The notes under the pieces were generated by a model that made no database searches, had not been told where the DNA came from, and worked only from the letters and a program-made list of their open reading frames with translations. This document shows, in pieces, positions 48,868 to 58,847 of a stretch of 64,000 nucleotides of DNA (the first letter of the stretch is position 1; every line of letters begins with the position of its first letter). The position numbers and the translations under genes were made by a program. This stretch comes from Flavobacteriales bacterium (GTDB lineage Bacteria > Bacteroidota > Bacteroidia > Flavobacteriales_D > Sanyastnellaceae), in assembly GCA_947448135.1 (NCBI GenBank), contig CANFLZ010000007.1:1-64000 (forward strand), in the 5' to 3' direction.

Positions 48868-51800
48868 ATGCGGAAAAAGATTACGCTATTGCTTGCAGGA
48901 ATCTTGTTGACCTTGACCAGTGCTTTTGCCCAGAACTCGGGTACTTTGAAAGGAAAGGTAACGGATAAAGATAACAAGCAGCCATTGCCATTCGTGAATG
49001 TAATTGTCTTCTTGAATGGTAATTTGGTTACCGGAGGTCAAACGGATATTGATGGTGAATACACCATTAAACCGATCGATCCGGGAACGTATGATATTCA
49101 ATTTAATTTTGTTGGATATCAATCTCAAGAGTTGAAAGGAGTGCCTGTTTCTGCTGGAAAAATTCAGTTTGCGAATACAGAAATGTCTGCGGGTGCTGAA
49201 ATGAAGACTTTGGAGATTAATGACTTTAAAGTTCCTTTGATTGATAAGGACGGTGGAGCATCAGGAGGTACCGTTACTCGTGAGGAGTTGGCGCGTATGC
49301 CTTCTCGTGATGCATTGGGATTGGCACAAACGGTGGCAGGTGTTAGCAGCGCTGGTACAGGCGGAGGAATCTCTATCCGTGGTGCTCGTACTGGATCTAC
49401 TTGGGTGTATATCGATGGTATCAAAGTTCGTGGATCATCAGCGCTTCCAAAATCGGCGATTGAAGAGGTTTCTGTTATCACGGGTGGTGTTCCAGCCAAT
49501 ATTGGTGACGTAACAGGGGGGGTAATCAATATCTCTTTGCGTTCCGCTTCTGCTAATTACACGGGAGGTGTTGAGGCGATTTCGTCTGGTATGCAAGTAG
49601 GTGATAAAGTGATTGGCTTGGACAAATACGGCTATAACTTGGTTGAAGGTTCTTTATCTGGGCCGCTTGTTTTCCGTAGAAATGCAGACGGAACAAAAAG
49701 CAAGAAGCCATTGTTGGGATTCTTCGTTTCAGGAAACTATACAGACATCGTCGATAATTCTCCAGCTTATGGTGGAGTATACAAGATGAAAGACAGCGCT
49801 TTGAGTTCAATATTGCAAAATCCGTTGCGCCAAAACGTACAGGCTGATGGTTCTGTCAATGGAGCACTTTACAATGCAGACTTTTTACAGTCAGATCAAT
49901 TTGAGAAAATTGATACCCGCTTGAATGTGAGAAACAAGACGGTTAATATGGTTGGTAAAATTGATTTTACTGCCAATCAGAACACAACCTTTACAATTGG
50001 AGGAACCGCTGCTTATAGAAAAGGAAATGACTTTGACTATAGCAATATGTTGATGAACACAGCCAACAATCAGCAAGCAACAGATTGGGATTGGAGAGCA
50101 TATGCGAAATTTAGTCAACGTTTCAATAATTCACAAAATGAGACAGGAACATTAAAAAATGTATTCTACTCAATTTTGGTAGATTACAGCAGTACATATC
50201 GTTTGCGTCAGGACGCAACACACAAAGACAAGCTTTTCCGTTATGGTCACGTTGGACACTTTGATGTAACTCGCGCTCGCTCTTATTCATTGGCAAACGA
50301 AGGAGGATACTATCAACAAAACGGATGGCAGGATGTGAATGTTGCGTTCACACCCAGCCAATACAATCCTGATTTGGCGGCCATTACCAATCAATTCTTT
50401 ACTTTGTTTGATACACCCAGTAGTGTTACAGAGGTGTTGAATGGTTCAGATCCTTACATCACGAATGATGGATTCTTTGATGCTGCAACCAATGAGTTTA
50501 CGACCGAGGCTTCTCAAATTGGAGACTCACCTTATTCTTCATTGACCAATATTCAAGGAAACAATGGATTGATCAATGGTCAGGTTCCAACAGATACATA
50601 CGGTTTATGGAATTATGTTGGTGGACAAAGCAACAACTACAGTGTTTCAAGCAATCGCCAGTTCCGTGTTTCTGGAACAGGTTCTGCTGACATTGGAAAC
50701 CATGCTATTCAAGTTGGTTTCGAATTTGAGCAACGTAAAGATGCAGGATATGCTGTTGCACCTGTTGGTTTGTGGTTGAGAGCTCGTCAATTGGCTAACT
50801 TCCAAATTTCTGAAATCAATAAGGATGATCCCTCATACTTCAGTAACAATGGCGTTACTTATGAAAACTATGGCGCTTTGGTGGGATCCGATCAATTTGA
50901 ATTTGACTACAATTTGCGCAATGCTTTAGGATTGGACGTGAATGGTTCTGATTATATTAATGTTGACAACATTAATCCAGACGATATGAATATTTCGATG
51001 TTTGGTGCAGACGATTTGTTGAACCAAGGAAATAGTCTTGTTTCTTATTATGGTTACGATCCATACGGAAATCGTTTGAAAGGCAATCGCCCAACAATCA
51101 ATGACTTTTTCTCTGAGAAATATACATTGGCAGATGGCAAGCAATTTAACACTAGAAGAATTGGAGCATTTGAACCAACTTACATCTCAGGATATGTGAT
51201 GGATAAATTTGCGTTTGATGATTTGATTTTCAACGTTGGTTTGCGTATCGACCGTTATGATGCCAACCAATATGTTCCAATTGATCCATACGTCATCAGC
51301 CAAGCAAATACCGCTTCAGAGGTTGATTATAGCAAATTCAATACATCGCGTCCATCAAACATCGGAGACAACTTCGTTGTTTATGTTGACAATATTGATC
51401 AACCTACTTCTATCACAGGTTACCGTGATGGTAACACTTGGTACAATGCTTCAGGAGCTTTGGTAACAGATCCATTTACATCGGTTGCTTCAGGCGGAAC
51501 TGTGAAGCCATATTTGAAAGTTGATCCAAAGGCTGATTTGACGGCAAGTGCGTTTAAAGAGTATCAACCGGTTGTCAACTTCATGCCTCGTATTGCCTTC
51601 TCATTCCCAATTTCTGATGAAGCTTTGTTCTTTGCTCACTATGATGTATTGACTCAGCGTCCAACAGAAAGCAATCGTTTTGACCCAACAGATTACTTGT
51701 ATTTGGCTAACGCTTCTAACCCAATCATCAACAATCCAAACTTGAAGCCTGAGCGCACAGTGGATTATGCTTTGGGATTCCAACAAGTATTGTCTAAAAC

Positions 51801-52632
51801 GTCATCTTTGAAAGTGGAGGCTTTCTACCGTGAGTTGCGTAATATGATTCAGATTCGTTCGATCGTAGGAGCTTACCCTGCTTCGTATAAGACTTTTGAT
51901 AACATTGACTTTGGAACAGTAAAAGGTTTGACGTTGTCTTACGATTTGCGTCCAACCGGAAACTTGTGGATGAAGAGTTCTTACACATTGCAATTTGCTG
52001 ATGGAACAGGATCTACCACACAAACTCAGTTGGCCTTGATTAACGCAGGTTTGCCCAACTTGAGAACAGTAAATCCAGTGAACTTTGACCAACGTCACCG
52101 TATTGTTACCACTGTGGATTACCACTATGGTTCGGGTTCAGATTACAATGGTCCAGTTTGGTTTGATCGTCAAGTGTTTGCCAATGCAGGTGTAAACTTC
52201 ATTGCCAACTTAGGATCAGGTACACCATACACGCCTCAGGTAATTGCTACGCCAATTACAGGTGAAATCTCTCCGACAACAGAAGGTTCTATCAATGGTG
52301 CACGTTTGCCATGGCAGTTCAATATGGATATGAATATTGACAAGAATATTCCTTTGGAATTTGGTAAAGCTGATGGTAAGAAAAAGGCAGCGAATTTGAA
52401 TATCTATTTGTGGGTAAACAACTTGTTGAACACGCGCAACATCACTGGCGTGTATCGTTTCACTGGTACTCCAAATGATGACGGGTTCTTGGCTTCGGCT
52501 CAATATCAAACACAAATTAATTCTCAAAACTCACCAAGCGCTTATCGCAATTACTATGGAATGTATGTGAATAACCCTTACAACTTGGGTTCGCCACGTC
52601 AAATTCGCCTAGGAATTCGTTTGGACTTCTAA
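48868..52632 (+). CDS. TonB-dependent outer membrane receptor with carboxypeptidase-like regulatory domain
   Basis: A 1254-aa receptor: signal peptide (ILLTLTSAFAQ), CarboxypepD_reg-like domain (about 24-110, GTLKGKVTDKDNKQPLPFVN and DIQFNFVGYQSQELKG), plug domain (about 130-235, with TREELARMPSRDALGLAQTV and GISIRGARTGSTWVYIDGIK), then a large beta barrel ending in SPRQIRLGIRLDF, whose terminal Phe is the usual BAM signal. It is SusC-like in layout but no SusD partner follows. Long extracellular-loop content (about 300 residues of N- and D-rich sequence) is evident. It starts a three-gene unit; energising TonB proteins are at 24709-27818. Confidence 0.93.
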   Translation: MRKKITLLLAGILLTLTSAFAQNSGTLKGKVTDKDNKQPLPFVNVIVFLNGNLVTGGQTDIDGEYTIKPIDPGTYDIQFNFVGYQSQELKGVPVSAGKIQFANTEMSAGAEMKTLEINDFKVPLIDKDGGASGGTVTREELARMPSRDALGLAQTVAGVSSAGTGGGISIRGARTGSTWVYIDGIKVRGSSALPKSAIEEVSVITGGVPANIGDVTGGVINISLRSASANYTGGVEAISSGMQVGDKVIGLDKYGYNLVEGSLSGPLVFRRNADGTKSKKPLLGFFVSGNYTDIVDNSPAYGGVYKMKDSALSSILQNPLRQNVQADGSVNGALYNADFLQSDQFEKIDTRLNVRNKTVNMVGKIDFTANQNTTFTIGGTAAYRKGNDFDYSNMLMNTANNQQATDWDWRAYAKFSQRFNNSQNETGTLKNVFYSILVDYSSTYRLRQDATHKDKLFRYGHVGHFDVTRARSYSLANEGGYYQQNGWQDVNVAFTPSQYNPDLAAITNQFFTLFDTPSSVTEVLNGSDPYITNDGFFDAATNEFTTEASQIGDSPYSSLTNIQGNNGLINGQVPTDTYGLWNYVGGQSNNYSVSSNRQFRVSGTGSADIGNHAIQVGFEFEQRKDAGYAVAPVGLWLRARQLANFQISEINKDDPSYFSNNGVTYENYGALVGSDQFEFDYNLRNALGLDVNGSDYINVDNINPDDMNISMFGADDLLNQGNSLVSYYGYDPYGNRLKGNRPTINDFFSEKYTLADGKQFNTRRIGAFEPTYISGYVMDKFAFDDLIFNVGLRIDRYDANQYVPIDPYVISQANTASEVDYSKFNTSRPSNIGDNFVVYVDNIDQPTSITGYRDGNTWYNASGALVTDPFTSVASGGTVKPYLKVDPKADLTASAFKEYQPVVNFMPRIAFSFPISDEALFFAHYDVLTQRPTESNRFDPTDYLYLANASNPIINNPNLKPERTVDYALGFQQVLSKTSSLKVEAFYRELRNMIQIRSIVGAYPASYKTFDNIDFGTVKGLTLSYDLRPTGNLWMKSSYTLQFADGTGSTTQTQLALINAGLPNLRTVNPVNFDQRHRIVTTVDYHYGSGSDYNGPVWFDRQVFANAGVNFIANLGSGTPYTPQVIATPITGEISPTTEGSINGARLPWQFNMDMNIDKNIPLEFGKADGKKKAANLNIYLWVNNLLNTRNITGVYRFTGTPNDDGFLASAQYQTQINSQNSPSAYRNYYGMYVNNPYNLGSPRQIRLGIRLDF

Positions 52633-52652
52633 AAATTAAGGAGAAAGAAATC

Positions 52653-55600
52653 ATGAAAACGAGATATATGAAATCAATATTGATTGTAATGATGGCCATG
52701 ATGTCTTTGACATCAATGGCGTACAAATCAGATGTTGTGCGAGTAGGATCCGACAATCAAGGCAGTTCAGGTCTGGTAAAAGCTGCGGCTTGTTCACCGG
52801 CAACTGGAATGCGTGACTTGGAATGGAACAACGTAAAGGCGCGTATCGAAACAGGAGGAAACATGTGGACAGACCGTGCCAATAGCCGTGCTGCTTATGA
52901 GGTTCCAAAGGGAGGTGGAGTTTCTTCTCTTTATGCTGGTGCTTTGTGGTTGGGCGGTCGTTCTCCTGACCAACAATTGAAATTGTCTGCGATTACTTTC
53001 CGTGCAAATGGAAATGATTATTGGCCTGGACCATTGACCAATGACGGAACGGCCTCTGTCAACGAAGCGGTTTGTGAGCAATATGATAGATTCTTTGTAT
53101 CCTATCGCCAAGATGCACAACGTCATCGTGCATATTATGATTGTATGCAAGCTGGTGGAAGTGATTGTGAAGAGAATTACTCAATTCCTGGTTATTTCTA
53201 TACTTATCCTGCAATTGGAAATACAGCACAAGGTCAAGATTTGTACTTGGCTCCTTTCTATGATTATGACCAAGATGGATTTTACAATCCGCAAAATGGT
53301 GACTATCCTTGGTATGATTTCTTGAGAGAAGTGAATTGTGCTTCGCGCAAACGTGAGGATATCGTTCCATTGTTTGGCGATGAGACTTTCTATTGGATTT
53401 TTAACGATAAGGGAAATGCACATACAGAGTCTCAAGGTCAGCCAATCGGAATGGAGATTCGTGCACAAGCTTTTGCTTTCAACTCAAATGATGAGATCAA
53501 CAACATGACTTTTTATAATTATGTTTTGATCAATCAAGGAACACAAACGTTGACAGATACCTATTTCGGATCATGGGTCGACTCAGATTTGGGTACACCA
53601 ACCGATGATTATGTGGGTTGTGACGTAAGACGTGGTTTGGGTTATGCCTACAATGGAGATAACAATGACCAAACATCAACAGCCTCTATGGGTTATGGAT
53701 TGAATCCTCCAGCAGTAGGTGTTGACTTTTTTGAAGGTCCATATCAAGATAATGACAATTTGGATAATCCGTTGACAGAAGATATCATCAACGCTACGGA
53801 TTCTTTGGGAATTCCCTACCGTGGTTTGGGTATTGGTTATGGTGACGGTGTAGCAGACAACGAGCGTTTTGGAATGCGTCGTTTTGTATACTATAACAAC
53901 AACCAAAATCCAATCAATGGTGAGCCATCTGTTGCGATTCACTTCTACAACTACATGCGTGGTATTTGGAAGAATGGTGCTGAAATGTTGTATGGTGGTA
54001 ATGGTGTAAGTGGTGCAGGTGTGTTGACAGGAGTTCCTGCTCAATACATGTTCCCGGATGATACTGACCCAGCAAGCTGGGGAACTTATGGAGTTCCAGT
54101 AGAGCCGTGGTCTGAAGTAAGCAGTGGTAACATTGCAGCTGACCGTCGTTTTATTCAATCTGCAGGGCCATTCACTTTGGAGCCTGGAGATTACAACAAC
54201 ATCACTGTGGGTGTTGTATGGGCACGCGCTACAAGCGGAGATGCATTTGAAAGTGTACGTTTGTTGCGTCAATATGATGACAAAGCACAAGCGTTGTTTG
54301 ACAATTGTTTTGAATTGGTTTCTGGTCCAGACGCTCCAGACGTAAGTGTTCGCGAATTGGATCGTGAGATCATCTTGATGTTGAGCAACAACAACCCAAT
54401 TTCTACCAATTACAATGAAGCTTATGGTCCTGACCAAGGCGGTTTCGACCCTAGCATTCCTGAAGAATTGGCGGATGGAACACAATTGGATACAGTTGCT
54501 CGTTCATACAAGTTTGAAGGGTACTTGGTATATCAATTGGCTAGCGCAGAAGTGAAGGCCAATGACTTAGAAGATGTTACAAAAGCAAGATTGATTGCAC
54601 AGTGTGATATCGAAAACGGTGTGACCAACATTGTCAACTTCACACGTGATCCAATCTCTGGATTCATTGTGCCTGAGTTGAAAGTGCAGGGTGCCGATCA
54701 GGGAATTCACAGAAGTTTCCAAGTGAAGAATGATGCCTTTGCGCAAGGAAACAATCGATTGATCAATCACAAGACATACTATTTCATGGTATTGGCTTAT
54801 GGATACAACAATTACTTGCAATATGACATGGGAGCAGAGAGTGGTCAGGATGAAGCGTTTTTGTCTTCTCGAAAAGGAGCAGTAGGTGAAATTCCTGTTG
54901 TTGCCGCTATTCCTCACAACAACCAACCAGCGTTTGGTGGAGCGATTTTGAATGCACAATACGGAGACGGGGTGACATTGACAAGAATTGAAGGAAAAGG
55001 AAATGGTTTGAATGAATTGCAATTGGACGCGGCATCTGAGAGCAATATCTTGAATAACATTACCTCTAGCGAGTGCACTTACTTGCCAGGCATGGGTCCA
55101 GTAGATGTAAAGGTTGTAGATCCATTGGCTTTGCCAGCGGCAGACTTTGCGTTGTCATTGGAATCGTCGTCCGCAGGGGAATTTGCAGCGGATAGTATGT
55201 ATTGGCAGTTGGTGAACTTGACCTCAGGTGATACATTGACTTCAGCTCATAGTTTCAAAGTTGGAAGTGAGGACATCTTGTTGGATTATGGATTGTCAAT
55301 TAACTGGAGTCAATACCAATATTTGATTGATGGAACAGCAGTAAAACATTATACGGAGTTTATTTCTGGAACAATGGAGTTCAGCAATGCTGCAAAACCA
55401 TGGTTTGCAGGTTTTGCCGATCAAGAAGGATTCTTTGAAGGAAACTGGATTCGTGCCGGGGCGGTGAAAACGGAAGGAACAGACGCAACAGCATTGTTTG
55501 AGCAATTGTATGATGATTTTGAACAAGGAAGTGGCACAGAACCATTCACTGATGCATCTGAGAAATACGAAGGTGTAGTTGGAGGAACTTGGGGTCCCTA

Positions 55601-56858
55601 TTGCTTGGCAGCTTATTCAATCTTGAATTTTGACCAAGATGGAGATCCAGCAACTCCAGGTGTAACGATCAACAATGTTGCACCAACAATTAATGACATC
55701 AAAGGAGATAACAACACGATTGATTCTGAACGTCGCAGTAGTATCCGTGGATTGAACAACGTAGACGTGGTGATGACTTCCGATAAAACAAAATGGACGC
55801 GGGTTCCAGTGTTCGAAGAAAATGCCAATAGTTTAGCGGAAGATGTCGATGGTATTGCCAATGGAACGCCGAGCAAAATGAAATTGCGCCATCACTTGTC
55901 CGTAGACAAAAATGGTAAAGTAGCAGGAGAGGCAGGTTATAACGCAGCAGAAGGAGATTTCAATGGTACTCAACCATGGGGTATGGGTTGGTTCCCTGGT
56001 TACGCAATTGACCTAGGAACAGGCGAACGTTTGAATTTAGCTTTTGGTGAAGATTCTTGGTTGGTTGGAGAAAATGGAAACGACATGTTGTGGAATCCAA
56101 CTTCTAACTTGGTTTCTCCACAAGGATTTGGTCAAGTTGCTGCCGGTCAACATTGGATTTATGTTTTCAAGAATTTTGCTAATGAAGACAACAGCACAAG
56201 TGTTTGTCCAGCCTATGACAACGGACAATTCTTGTATGATCAGTTGAGTAATACAAGCTTGAGTTCAAGCAACTGGAAAAAGATTTTCAGAGCATGTACT
56301 TGGGTTGGATCAGCGGCATTGGCTCCTGGTTATACCATGGAGAGCGCAGAAAATGGATTGATCCCAGGAGGTAATACTTTGCGTATTCGTTTGCGTGTGG
56401 CCAAAGATTATGACAAGTTCCGTTACAACAGTGGAGATGTGAATGATGCCTCTTCAGCGCAAAACGCTTGGAGACCATTGTACCATTTCAGTACAAAAGG
56501 AATTGCTCCAATCTTGAATAGCAACACAGCTTTGACCAATTCGTTGGATATGATCAATGTTGTACCTAACCCATACTATGCTTTCAGCTTGTATGAGACA
56601 AGCAAGTTGGACAATCGTGTCAAGATTACCAATTTGCCTGAAGAGTGTACTGTAACTATTTATGATATGAATGGAACAAGAATCCGTCAATTCAAAAAGG
56701 CAGATCCATTGACCAGTATTGATTGGGACTTGAAAAACAATAAGAACATTCCTATTGCTTCGGGTACCTATATCATCCATATTGAAGTTCCAGGAGCTGG
56801 AGAGAAAGTCTTGAAATGGTTCGGTGTAATGCGACCAGTAGACTTGGATAATTTCTAA
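52653..56858 (+). CDS. Very large secreted protein with type IX-style C-terminal domain
   Basis: A 1401-aa exported protein starting 20 bp after the receptor gene. The N-terminus (KSILIVMMAMMSLTSMAY) is a signal peptide; ATG 52653 or 52668 are possible. No enzymatic domain is recognised. The body is rich in aromatic residues, N, D and G, with calcium-loop-like stretches such as DYDQDGFYNPQNGDYPWYD and NFDQDGDPATPG. Residues about 1300-1401 look like an Ig/FlgD-like sorting domain: NVVPNPYYAFSLYE, CTVTIYDMNGTRIRQFKK, IPIASGTYIIHIEVPG, ending KWFGVMRPVDLDNF. Secretion by the type IX system is inferred from that domain and the PorV-like gene that follows 20 bp later. Confidence 0.82.
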   Translation: MKTRYMKSILIVMMAMMSLTSMAYKSDVVRVGSDNQGSSGLVKAAACSPATGMRDLEWNNVKARIETGGNMWTDRANSRAAYEVPKGGGVSSLYAGALWLGGRSPDQQLKLSAITFRANGNDYWPGPLTNDGTASVNEAVCEQYDRFFVSYRQDAQRHRAYYDCMQAGGSDCEENYSIPGYFYTYPAIGNTAQGQDLYLAPFYDYDQDGFYNPQNGDYPWYDFLREVNCASRKREDIVPLFGDETFYWIFNDKGNAHTESQGQPIGMEIRAQAFAFNSNDEINNMTFYNYVLINQGTQTLTDTYFGSWVDSDLGTPTDDYVGCDVRRGLGYAYNGDNNDQTSTASMGYGLNPPAVGVDFFEGPYQDNDNLDNPLTEDIINATDSLGIPYRGLGIGYGDGVADNERFGMRRFVYYNNNQNPINGEPSVAIHFYNYMRGIWKNGAEMLYGGNGVSGAGVLTGVPAQYMFPDDTDPASWGTYGVPVEPWSEVSSGNIAADRRFIQSAGPFTLEPGDYNNITVGVVWARATSGDAFESVRLLRQYDDKAQALFDNCFELVSGPDAPDVSVRELDREIILMLSNNNPISTNYNEAYGPDQGGFDPSIPEELADGTQLDTVARSYKFEGYLVYQLASAEVKANDLEDVTKARLIAQCDIENGVTNIVNFTRDPISGFIVPELKVQGADQGIHRSFQVKNDAFAQGNNRLINHKTYYFMVLAYGYNNYLQYDMGAESGQDEAFLSSRKGAVGEIPVVAAIPHNNQPAFGGAILNAQYGDGVTLTRIEGKGNGLNELQLDAASESNILNNITSSECTYLPGMGPVDVKVVDPLALPAADFALSLESSSAGEFAADSMYWQLVNLTSGDTLTSAHSFKVGSEDILLDYGLSINWSQYQYLIDGTAVKHYTEFISGTMEFSNAAKPWFAGFADQEGFFEGNWIRAGAVKTEGTDATALFEQLYDDFEQGSGTEPFTDASEKYEGVVGGTWGPYCLAAYSILNFDQDGDPATPGVTINNVAPTINDIKGDNNTIDSERRSSIRGLNNVDVVMTSDKTKWTRVPVFEENANSLAEDVDGIANGTPSKMKLRHHLSVDKNGKVAGEAGYNAAEGDFNGTQPWGMGWFPGYAIDLGTGERLNLAFGEDSWLVGENGNDMLWNPTSNLVSPQGFGQVAAGQHWIYVFKNFANEDNSTSVCPAYDNGQFLYDQLSNTSLSSSNWKKIFRACTWVGSAALAPGYTMESAENGLIPGGNTLRIRLRVAKDYDKFRYNSGDVNDASSAQNAWRPLYHFSTKGIAPILNSNTALTNSLDMINVVPNPYYAFSLYETSKLDNRVKITNLPEECTVTIYDMNGTRIRQFKKADPLTSIDWDLKNNKNIPIASGTYIIHIEVPGAGEKVLKWFGVMRPVDLDNF

Positions 56859-56878
56859 TTGAAAAGCGAAAGAGAAAA

Positions 56879-57913
56879 ATGAAAAAGAATATCATCGCGA
56901 TTATTGCCTTAGTGATTTCATCAACTGTGGCATTTGCTGGAAACCCAGACCGTGCGGGATCTGCAGGAGCAGGTCATCTATTAATCAATCCTTGGGCACG
57001 TAGTTCAGGAATGGGTTATTCTGCAATGGCTTCTATCAATGGAATTGAAGCGTCATACAACAACGTTGCAGGTTTGGCTTTTATCAATAAGACAGAGTTG
57101 TTGTTCACCAACACCAATTATTTAGTCGGCACAGGGATTAAAATCAATGCATTTGGTTTTGGTCAACGTGTTAGTGAATCCGGAGTCTTGGGCGTTTCTG
57201 TTACCAACATGAACTTCGGGGATATTCCAATCACTGAAGAGAACTTGCCAGAAGGTGGAATCGGAACCTTTTCTCCCAACTACACCAATATCGGATTGTC
57301 GTATGCAAAAGCATTTTCAAACAGCATTTATGGTGGATTGACAGTGAGATTGATTTCTGAAGCTATTTATAATGTGCGTTCACAAGGTGTATCTTTTGAT
57401 GCTGGTATCCGTTACGTGACAGGAGAAAATGACAACATTCGTTTCGGAATTACATTGCGCAATGTTGGACCGCCCATGCGATATAAAGGTGATGGTTTGT
57501 CTATTACGGCTACTATACCAACCAATGGAGCTTCTTTGACTGTTGAGCAACGTTCTGAGAAATATGAATTGCCATCTTTGGTCAATGTTGGTTTTGCTTA
57601 TGATTTCATCTTCAATGAAGAAACAAAATTGACAACCAATGCGCAGTATACTTCAAATTCATTCACCAAAGACCAATGGGGAATGGGGTTTGAGTTCAAC
57701 TTAAAGAATAAGTTCTTTTATCGCGCAGGATACCAGTGGGAAAAAGGTTTGAATTCAAAAGTTGATCGTACTACAGTTTTCACGGGTCCAACTGCGGGAG
57801 CCTCTTTGCAGTTCACCATGAACAACGCTTCGATCATCGGAATCGATTATTCTTACCGCACCACCAATCCATTTAACGGTGTGCACAGTTTGGGATTGCA
57901 TTTGACGTTGTAA
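56879..57913 (+). CDS. PorV/PorQ family outer membrane protein
   Basis: A 344-aa barrel with signal peptide (VISSTVAFAG). The start GSAGAGHLLINPWARSSGMG followed by YSAMASINGIEASYNNVAGL is the diagnostic N-terminal block of PorV/PorQ/FadL-like Bacteroidota proteins, and the chain ends with the strand GVHSLGLHLTL. PorV shuttles type IX substrates to the attachment complex; PorQ-type paralogues have less clear roles. Its position as third gene after a giant sorting-domain protein suggests a dedicated shuttle, which is inference. A terminator follows at 57942. Confidence 0.87.
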   Translation: MKKNIIAIIALVISSTVAFAGNPDRAGSAGAGHLLINPWARSSGMGYSAMASINGIEASYNNVAGLAFINKTELLFTNTNYLVGTGIKINAFGFGQRVSESGVLGVSVTNMNFGDIPITEENLPEGGIGTFSPNYTNIGLSYAKAFSNSIYGGLTVRLISEAIYNVRSQGVSFDAGIRYVTGENDNIRFGITLRNVGPPMRYKGDGLSITATIPTNGASLTVEQRSEKYELPSLVNVGFAYDFIFNEETKLTTNAQYTSNSFTKDQWGMGFEFNLKNKFFYRAGYQWEKGLNSKVDRTTVFTGPTAGASLQFTMNNASIIGIDYSYRTTNPFNGVHSLGLHLTL

Positions 57914-57939: not shown

Positions 57940-57971
57940 TGAAGAAACCTCGAAAGGGGTTTCTTTTTTTT
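57940..57971 (+). terminator. Terminator of the receptor/secreted protein/PorV operon
   Basis: AAGAAACC, a short loop, GGTTTCTT and a run of T. It closes the operon and precedes greA by about 20 bp. Confidence 0.85.
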
Positions 57972-57987
57972 CTAATACAATCAAGTT

Positions 57988-58458
57988 ATGGCTATTGCAT
58001 ATTATACCGCTGAAGGTTTAAAGAAATTGAAAGATGAATTGCATCAATTGAAAACCTATGAGCGTCCAAAAATCAGCCAGCAAATCGCTGAAGCTAGAGA
58101 TAAAGGTGACTTGTCGGAAAATGCAGAATATGATGCTGCAAAAGAGGCACAGGGTCATTTGGAGGCGCGTATCGCAAAGATGGAAGACTTGGTGGCCAAT
58201 GCGCGTTTGATAGACGAGTCTCAAGTAGATACCTCAAAGGTTTATATTCTTTCCAGAGTTCGTATTAAAAACAAGAAAACCAACGCTGAGGTAGAATATA
58301 CTTTGGTAGCAGAAAACGAAGCGAATTTGTCGGAAAAAAAGATCAGCGTGGATTCTCCCATAGGTAAGGGTTTATTAGGTAAAAAAGTTGGAGATACAGC
58401 CCAAGTTCAAGTTCCTGCGGGATTGATAGATTTTGAAATATTGTCGATTGAGCGTTAA
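57988..58458 (+). CDS. greA: Transcription elongation factor GreA
   Basis: Rescues backtracked RNA polymerase by stimulating transcript cleavage. The 156-aa protein has the N-terminal coiled-coil hairpin with the acidic tip (YTAEGLKKLKDELHQLKTYE, then EARDKGDLSENAEYDAAKEA) and the C-terminal FKBP-like domain with SPIGKGLLGKKVGDTAQVQV. Normal length. It is followed two bases later by the HIT-family gene. Confidence 0.97.
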   Translation: MAIAYYTAEGLKKLKDELHQLKTYERPKISQQIAEARDKGDLSENAEYDAAKEAQGHLEARIAKMEDLVANARLIDESQVDTSKVYILSRVRIKNKKTNAEVEYTLVAENEANLSEKKISVDSPIGKGLLGKKVGDTAQVQVPAGLIDFEILSIER

Positions 58459-58460
58459 TC

Positions 58461-58847
58461 ATGGCAAGTATTTTTTCAAGAATAGTTTCGGGTGAGATTC
58501 CTTGCTACAAAGTAGCGGAGGATGAAAACTATCTGGCATTTTTGGATATTTTGCCGGTAGCCAAGGGACATATTTTGGTTATTCCCAAAAGAGAGGAGGA
58601 CAAGTTGTGGAATTTGAGTGATGAGGAATATTTGGGATTGATGTTATTTGCCAAGCGAATTGCCAATAAAATGGAAGTTGTATTTGATTGCAAAAGAGTG
58701 GGAATGGCGGTGATTGGATTGGAAGTGCCACATGCCCATATCCATTTGGTTCCTATGAGCAGTCTCGGCGATATTGATTTTACAAAAGAGCGATTGAAAT
58801 TTACTCCGGATGAATACCAGGAGATGATCAATGCGATGATTCATTAA
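58461..58847 (+). CDS. HIT family protein (nucleotide hydrolase/transferase)
   Basis: A 128-aa histidine-triad protein. The motif VPHAHIHLVPM (H-x-H-x-H) near residue 96 is intact, and the N-terminal SIFSRIVSGEIPCYKVAEDE and LVIPKREEDKL are typical of the HinT branch, which hydrolyses phosphoramidates of AMP. The physiological substrate is not known. It is co-transcribed with greA and ends at a terminator. Confidence 0.94.
   Translation: MASIFSRIVSGEIPCYKVAEDENYLAFLDILPVAKGHILVIPKREEDKLWNLSDEEYLGLMLFAKRIANKMEVVFDCKRVGMAVIGLEVPHAHIHLVPMSSLGDIDFTKERLKFTPDEYQEMINAMIH

Follow-up and report, generated by a model that had tools for sequence, protein, structure and literature searches.

The window, a 64,000-nucleotide stretch of DNA from the assembly of a Flavobacteriales bacterium (contig CANFLZ010000007.1), contains three consecutive open reading frames on the + strand. 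They code for a TonB-dependent receptor of 1254 amino acids (TBDT; 48868-52632), a secreted T9SS cargo protein of 1401 amino acids that we call BIG (52653-56858; identified from its sequence, a TIGR04183 match and its sorting fold), and an outer-membrane barrel of 344 amino acids (56879-57913) that is a putative shuttle or anchor for BIG. The gaps between TBDT and BIG and between BIG and the barrel are 20 bp each, and a terminator-like hairpin with a T-run follows the trio (57941-57966, + strand), so the first-pass annotation was correct in describing three genes 20 bp apart that end at one terminator. The region has 11 terminator-like sites compared to 7.8 expected by chance, so it is the position of this hairpin, and not its mere existence, that counts as evidence. 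Downstream of the trio are two + strand genes (57988-58847), presumably a GreA-like and a HIT-family gene, which are syntenic in the window's order and lie outside the mechanism proposed below; these names, and the addA-like and RND-pump-like genes mentioned later, come from our recognition of the sequences.

The TBDT has an N-terminal CarboxypepD_reg domain and a Plug domain in Pfam (plug, PF07715, 49270-49524, + strand). It was initially described as SusC-like, but we rejected this assignment because the protein has no match at E ≤ 10 to NCBIfam models, including SusC/RagA; it is a CarboxypepD_reg TBDT outside that family. The initial observation that the receptor lacks a SusD partner holds: its neighbor is BIG, and the sole SusD match in the genome, a partial one, is on a different contig and not beside the TBDT. 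A sequence search of the PDB with the TBDT as query gave no match. The genome codes for about 20 plug-domain proteins, among which there is only one full-length receptor of the trio kind. Ahead of the plug, at residues 115-128, the TBDT has a conserved segment, Y-K-V-P-L-I-D-K-D, whose Y, P, L and I are kept in 48-50 of 51 sequences, and which we take to resemble a segment of Oar-type receptors.

BIG begins with a putative signal peptide (52653-52721, + strand), assigned by inspection, in which we saw no lipobox. No Pfam family matches BIG above its cut-off, and a BIG query against the PDB by sequence gives at most a weak match to PorZ. We therefore describe its domains from two predicted models, covering residues 40-770 (pLDDT 89.5) and 755-1401 (pLDDT 88.5, with an Ig-like domain at its end), both of which are mostly beta with a few short helices. 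The first 500 residues of the 40-770 model match the N-terminal supersandwich domains of dextran dextrinase, cellodextrin phosphorylase, glucoamylase and GH116 enzymes (Z 17-19, 3-3.7 Å over about 250 residues; best match Z 18.8, 3.2 Å, 253 residues), and we place a predicted beta-supersandwich domain at residues about 47-555 (52791-54317, + strand). The match list for the 755-1401 model is filled by the sorting domain and says little about residues 755-1290. We rejected the idea that BIG is an enzyme, because no Pfam family reaches its cut-off and the supersandwich is present without a catalytic barrel, which agrees with the first-pass annotation. Sugar binding by the N-terminal domain is only a fold resemblance in the model, and a shared fold does not prove it. 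The repeated calcium-loop-like motifs once noted in BIG were also rejected: there are just two strict DxDxDG motifs, at residues 204 and 992, of which only the one at 204 is conserved, and the count is close to the expectation from shuffled sequences.

The Ig-like sorting domain that had been proposed at the C terminus of BIG is present, at residues about 1293-1393 (56529-56831, + strand). In our model, its fold is nearest to that of the PorZ sorting domain (Z 10.6, 88 residues, 2.1 Å), followed by PorU (Z 8.6) and by RemA and mirolase (both about 7), and a PorZ model matches every BIG-family member scanned except for one 643-residue paralog. The two profiles suggested for checking the last residues gave a split answer. 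TIGR04183 matches residues 1323-1380 and barely passes (23.5 bits, cut-off 23), while it scores 21.8 bits, under the cut-off, in a second copy of BIG in the same genome, and is below the cut-off or absent in BIG orthologs. The type B model TIGR04131 has no match to BIG at E ≤ 10, so we rejected BIG as type B cargo.

Unlike ordinary type A cargo, BIG continues past the last strand of the sorting domain, into an extra conserved tail of 7-9 residues ending in [LI]xx[FY]; in the window this tail is PVDLDNF (56835-56855, + strand). The genome has 85 sorting-domain proteins over the cut-off and one SprA. Compared to 26 ordinary sorting domains from this genome, which have no counterpart of the tail, BIG proteins end 28 residues after the GxY motif instead of a mean of 18 (range 8-21), and none of the 26 ends in F. 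Within the window's order, F is the last residue of 71 of 90 BIG proteins, and L stands three residues before the end in 85 of 90; elsewhere, in other classes, the last residue is F or Y in 17 of 22. There are also proteins with BIG-like fronts and ordinary sorting ends. A 643-residue protein at L034:5286-7214, near a stand-alone BIG copy, has a PKD domain besides its BIG-like front, and its sorting domain is of the ordinary type A; two tandem proteins at L157:1070-7149 have BIG-like fronts and ordinary sorting ends with no adjacent barrel or receptor.

The third gene was initially called a PorV/PorQ-type barrel, and this family assignment holds: it scores 159.2 bits against the NF033709 cut-off of 90. 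It is equivalent neither to PorQ (84.7 bits, cut-off 220) nor to PorV (68.7, cut-off 250), although the PorQ score is the higher, and it also fails the cut-offs for PorV2 (44 bits against 325) and for the PorP/SprF model (27.6 against 90.6). With the barrel as query, a PDB sequence search matched only PorV. The window's genome contains four PorV-family genes; canonical PorV is encoded apart from the trio, by C2:22492 (391 bits). An IQ-TREE phylogeny of 79 PorV-family proteins groups 44 of 46 trio barrels together (SH-aLRT 99.4, UFBoot 97) and keeps canonical PorV and the remaining sampled paralogs outside this clade; FastTree recovers the same 44-barrel clade with weak support (0.516). The BIG protein of every locus with a barrel in this clade has the tail, which is lacking at the two loci with barrels outside it, L173 and L183–an association that involves only two out-of-clade loci, and in which some loci are close relatives. 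These two loci (L173:7343-14495 and L183:7223-14744) hold a distantly related second receptor-cargo-barrel trio, whose tail-less cargo ends at the last strand of the sorting domain. Compared to the four PorV/PorQ-family genes here, some genomes of other classes (G150, G324, G173 and G189) have 19-28 each. Many of these may be cognate barrels of other cargo, so cognate barrels are perhaps a wider theme in those classes.

The order TBDT-BIG-PorV is found elsewhere in Bacteroidota, as the first-pass annotation had proposed to check, and far beyond chance: it occurs at 76 of the 112 BIG loci with usable flanking sequence. These comprise 47 of 77 scorable loci in the window's order, all five in f18, which is a second group of the window's class, and, among other classes, 24 of 30. 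The median gap is 23 bp between TBDT and BIG and 27.5 bp between BIG and the barrel. Loci without the trio order are mostly stand-alone second copies of BIG, and one locus scored as lacking a barrel (L063) has one on inspection. The GreA-like and HIT-family genes also trail the trio in other families of the window's order, whereas in other classes the order of the trio is kept and the surrounding genes are different. BIG is present in 58 of 60 genomes searched among the relatives, including the window's own, and in all 46 of those genomes that pass as clean and at least 90% complete. BIG loci in the named collection come from Flavobacteriales, Crocinitomicaceae, Fluviicola, Vicingaceae and others. 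Five MAG records titled Chryseobacterium gleum (L043, L047, L071, L087 and L101) have names that look wrong, and their locus is closely related to those of Flavobacteriales MAGs.

In an even sample of 296 genomes from the phylum, BIG was found in 155 (part of them by weak matches to the C-terminal domain only) and all 155 have SprA; another 73 genomes have SprA but no BIG, and both are missing from 68. Shared descent inflates any p-value for this co-occurrence, which has no exceptions. Our searches of cellular genomes for relatives of the trio covered the phylum Bacteroidota, and none were found in the viral collection. In the open-access journal literature we found no account of the trio, of several PorV-like shuttles side by side, or of T9SS cargo evolving in concert; the sole match for concerted evolution was PMC7323717. 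We conclude that the module is real and conserved over great distances, and that it varies the known theme of a cargo with a cognate barrel in a new way.

The second copy of BIG in the window's genome is on another contig (G000 contig C23, L031:7693-11916, 1408 amino acids), beside an addA-like gene and without an adjacent receptor or barrel. The two copies have 68-69% DNA identity up to residue 1306, and then 92% up to the stop codon. In ten other genomes (G004, G006, G009, G010, G020, G021, G024, G028, G041 and PACT01) the jump occurs at residues 727-771, from 66-69% to 93-100% identity. Thus the front halves of BIG copies (residues ~1-750) are about 68% identical and the back halves up to 92-100%, with the homogenized part ending at the stop codon. 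The breakpoint zone, which corresponds to 54831-54965 (+ strand) in the window, coincides with a poorly ordered linker (residues 761-770) at the end of the N-terminal model. Two genomes are assembled through the similar stretch, G041 (93% over 1743 nt) and PACT01 (100% over 1989 nt), and because differences between the copies persist in G041 it is not a collapsed repeat there. In most of the other genomes the contigs end inside the identical stretch, 127 or 149 nt (or similar) into it, which is how assembly graphs behave at a repeat; most two-copy genomes are short-read MAGs. A tree of front halves separates the receptor-linked copies from the stand-alone ones, whereas in a tree of back halves the copies pair within PACT01, within G017 and within the window's genome (support 0.99-1.0). 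By these sequence comparisons, the back half of BIG is under concerted evolution. No homogenization was seen in the copy pairs of G013, G038, G046, G031 and L115; those of G013 and G038 are far apart or in direct order.

The copies have also exchanged flanks in three species. G017 has two convergent BIG copies on a single contig, about 52 kb apart, in the orders receptor-BIG-barrel-greA-HIT and addA-like-BIG with RND-pump-like genes downstream. PACT01 has the reciprocal arrangement, also on one contig: receptor-BIG-pump genes, and addA-like-BIG-barrel-greA-HIT. L091 likewise has receptor-BIG-pump genes, and G004, which belongs to the window's genus, has receptor-BIG-alanine dehydrogenase-pheT, in contrast to the standard order in its relative G002. 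In G017, a frame break, possibly a sequencing error or the mark of a decayed copy, splits the receptor-linked BIG gene (L035:7983-12181). In L048, L050, L091 and L291, receptor-BIG is joined to genes that otherwise lie downstream of the stand-alone copy, and vice versa. Inversion between convergent BIG copies is a possible explanation of the swapped flanks, and misassembly across an identical repeat in short-read MAGs could be another source of them; together, the homogenization and the swapped flanks fit gene conversion or inversion. Since no TBDT lies upstream of the barrel in the swapped genomes, co-transcription of all three genes is not strictly required. This pattern of recombination is the most surprising part of our results and was absent from the first reading of the locus, which also missed the second copy of BIG, its C-terminal tail, its supersandwich domain and its homogenized back half. 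It hints that the front half of BIG is an exchangeable, surface-exposed binding part.

What might the trio do? Known T9SS proteins provide precedents. Type A cargo leaves SprA on PorV (PMC10994853), whereas type B cargo requires cognate PorP/SprF shuttles (PMC12618676), which can also anchor it (PMC9143113). The sorting domain of PorZ is not removed, and PorQ holds on to the protein (review, PMC10202324). By these precedents, the trio barrel would collect and hold BIG. Because of the conserved gene order, the T9SS sorting fold and the distinct, co-inherited barrel lineage, our best reading of the barrel is that it is a dedicated partner that delivers and anchors BIG, much as the first-pass annotation had supposed for delivery, and by analogy the two can be read as a cognate cargo and anchor like PorZ and PorQ or SprB and SprF.

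We propose that a signal peptide takes BIG across the inner membrane and that SprA, the T9SS translocon, would take it across the outer membrane. There, BIG's own PorV/PorQ-family barrel, and not the general PorV, would collect it from SprA by its tailed sorting domain, and would go on holding that uncleaved domain to anchor BIG at the surface, in the way that PorQ serves PorZ and SprF serves SprB. BIG would then sit beside the TBDT with its N-terminal supersandwich facing outward as a binding head, and the TBDT would act on whatever the head binds. The second copy would present a different head while using the same barrel and receptor, and gene conversion or inversion between the copies would keep the shared back half alike; a common barrel and receptor would explain why back halves are similar and fronts differ. 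The stand-alone copies, which have no adjacent receptor, count against this explanation, as do the marginal TIGR04183 scores and the swapped genomes with their parted TBDT and barrel. We infer that the sorting domain is retained, that its tail is what the barrel recognizes, that BIG touches the TBDT and binds a ligand, and that the second copy shares the partners, and the coupling of BIG to the receptor, which had also been suggested earlier, is drawn from gene order alone. We give the explanation as a whole a probability of roughly 0.58. A bolder version, in which BIG is a T9SS-delivered counterpart of SusD in an uptake complex, pinned by a PorQ-like barrel and with two exchangeable heads, and in which gene conversion and inversions that swap the flanks of convergent copies preserve the common back half and let cells or lineages change the head behind the receptor, we consider speculative and rather doubtful.

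Alternatively, BIG and the barrel could form a surface structure of their own, such as an adhesin or coat, to which the receptor is tied by regulation only, for example during starvation. The frequent lack of a receptor beside the second copy would be expected in that case, and the genome is rich in both protein types (the numbers of plug-domain and sorting-domain proteins are given above). However, the receptor adjoins BIG at 82 of the 112 scorable loci, and the trio order survives where genomes have no other neighbor in common, so we regard this explanation as unlikely. We are still more skeptical that the TBDT is an Oar-like protein that helps to export or assemble BIG, with TonB energy directed outwards instead of into nutrient import. 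The CarboxypepD_reg domain and the strongly conserved segment before the plug would suit such a role, and the Myxococcus TBDT Oar is needed for secretion of the protease PopC (PMC6434023). But the T9SS sorting domain of BIG is complete and no BIG occurs in a genome without SprA, so another exit is unneeded, and swapped and stand-alone copies lack an adjacent receptor. Finally, it is improbable that BIG is ordinary type A cargo, carried by the general PorV and cleaved by PorU beside a spare barrel paralog, because the barrel belongs to a distinct clade that stays behind BIG across the phylum and the conserved tail is missing from 26 ordinary sorting domains, even though BIG has the sorting fold and a TIGR04183 match, and even though in Flavobacterium johnsoniae all cargo of type A is served by PorV (PMC12618676).

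T9SS cargo is matched to shuttles by two main rules: type A to PorV, and type B to cognate PorP/SprF. The phylum-wide loci suggest a third rule, in which a cargo with a tailed sorting domain, type A-like and close to that of PorZ, has its own PorV/PorQ-family barrel and is linked to a TonB receptor. Cognate PorV-like barrels have been suggested to shield sorting domains from cleavage (PMC10202324), and the trio makes this directly testable. The recurrent breakpoint marks the place where BIG splits into a head that can be exchanged and a body common to the copies.

Among known systems, the trio resembles PorZ-PorQ of the Porphyromonas gingivalis attachment complex, in which the sorting domain of a T9SS protein is retained by a PorV/PorQ-family barrel (PMC10202324) and whose PorZ is the nearest relative of the BIG sorting domain by fold and profile. 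Unlike PorZ, BIG has a supersandwich head and further beta domains, an extra C-terminal tail and second copies; unlike PorQ, for which it scores far below the cut-off, the trio barrel is encoded together with a TBDT. The arrangement of a large cargo gene followed by a specialized shuttle or anchor gene is as in SprB-SprF and other type B systems (PMC12618676, PMC9143113), but BIG does not match the type B model and its barrel is of the PorV/PorQ and not the PorP/SprF family. As for its head, BIG has in common with GH94, GH65, GH15 and GH116 enzymes an N-terminal supersandwich, a resemblance of fold alone, and is missing their (alpha/alpha)6 catalytic barrel. Oar of Myxococcus xanthus, which is not known to have a T9SS, is a TBDT whose role in protein secretion has been demonstrated (PMC6434023). 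The trio TBDT has the CarboxypepD_reg and plug architecture of Oar-like receptors, a likeness that is not proof of descent. Lastly, the trio may be likened to SusC-SusD pairs, as a TBDT encoded with a large protein that we propose to be surface-exposed, except that its receptor is outside SusC/RagA and that T9SS cargo bearing a signal peptide takes the place of a SusD lipoprotein.
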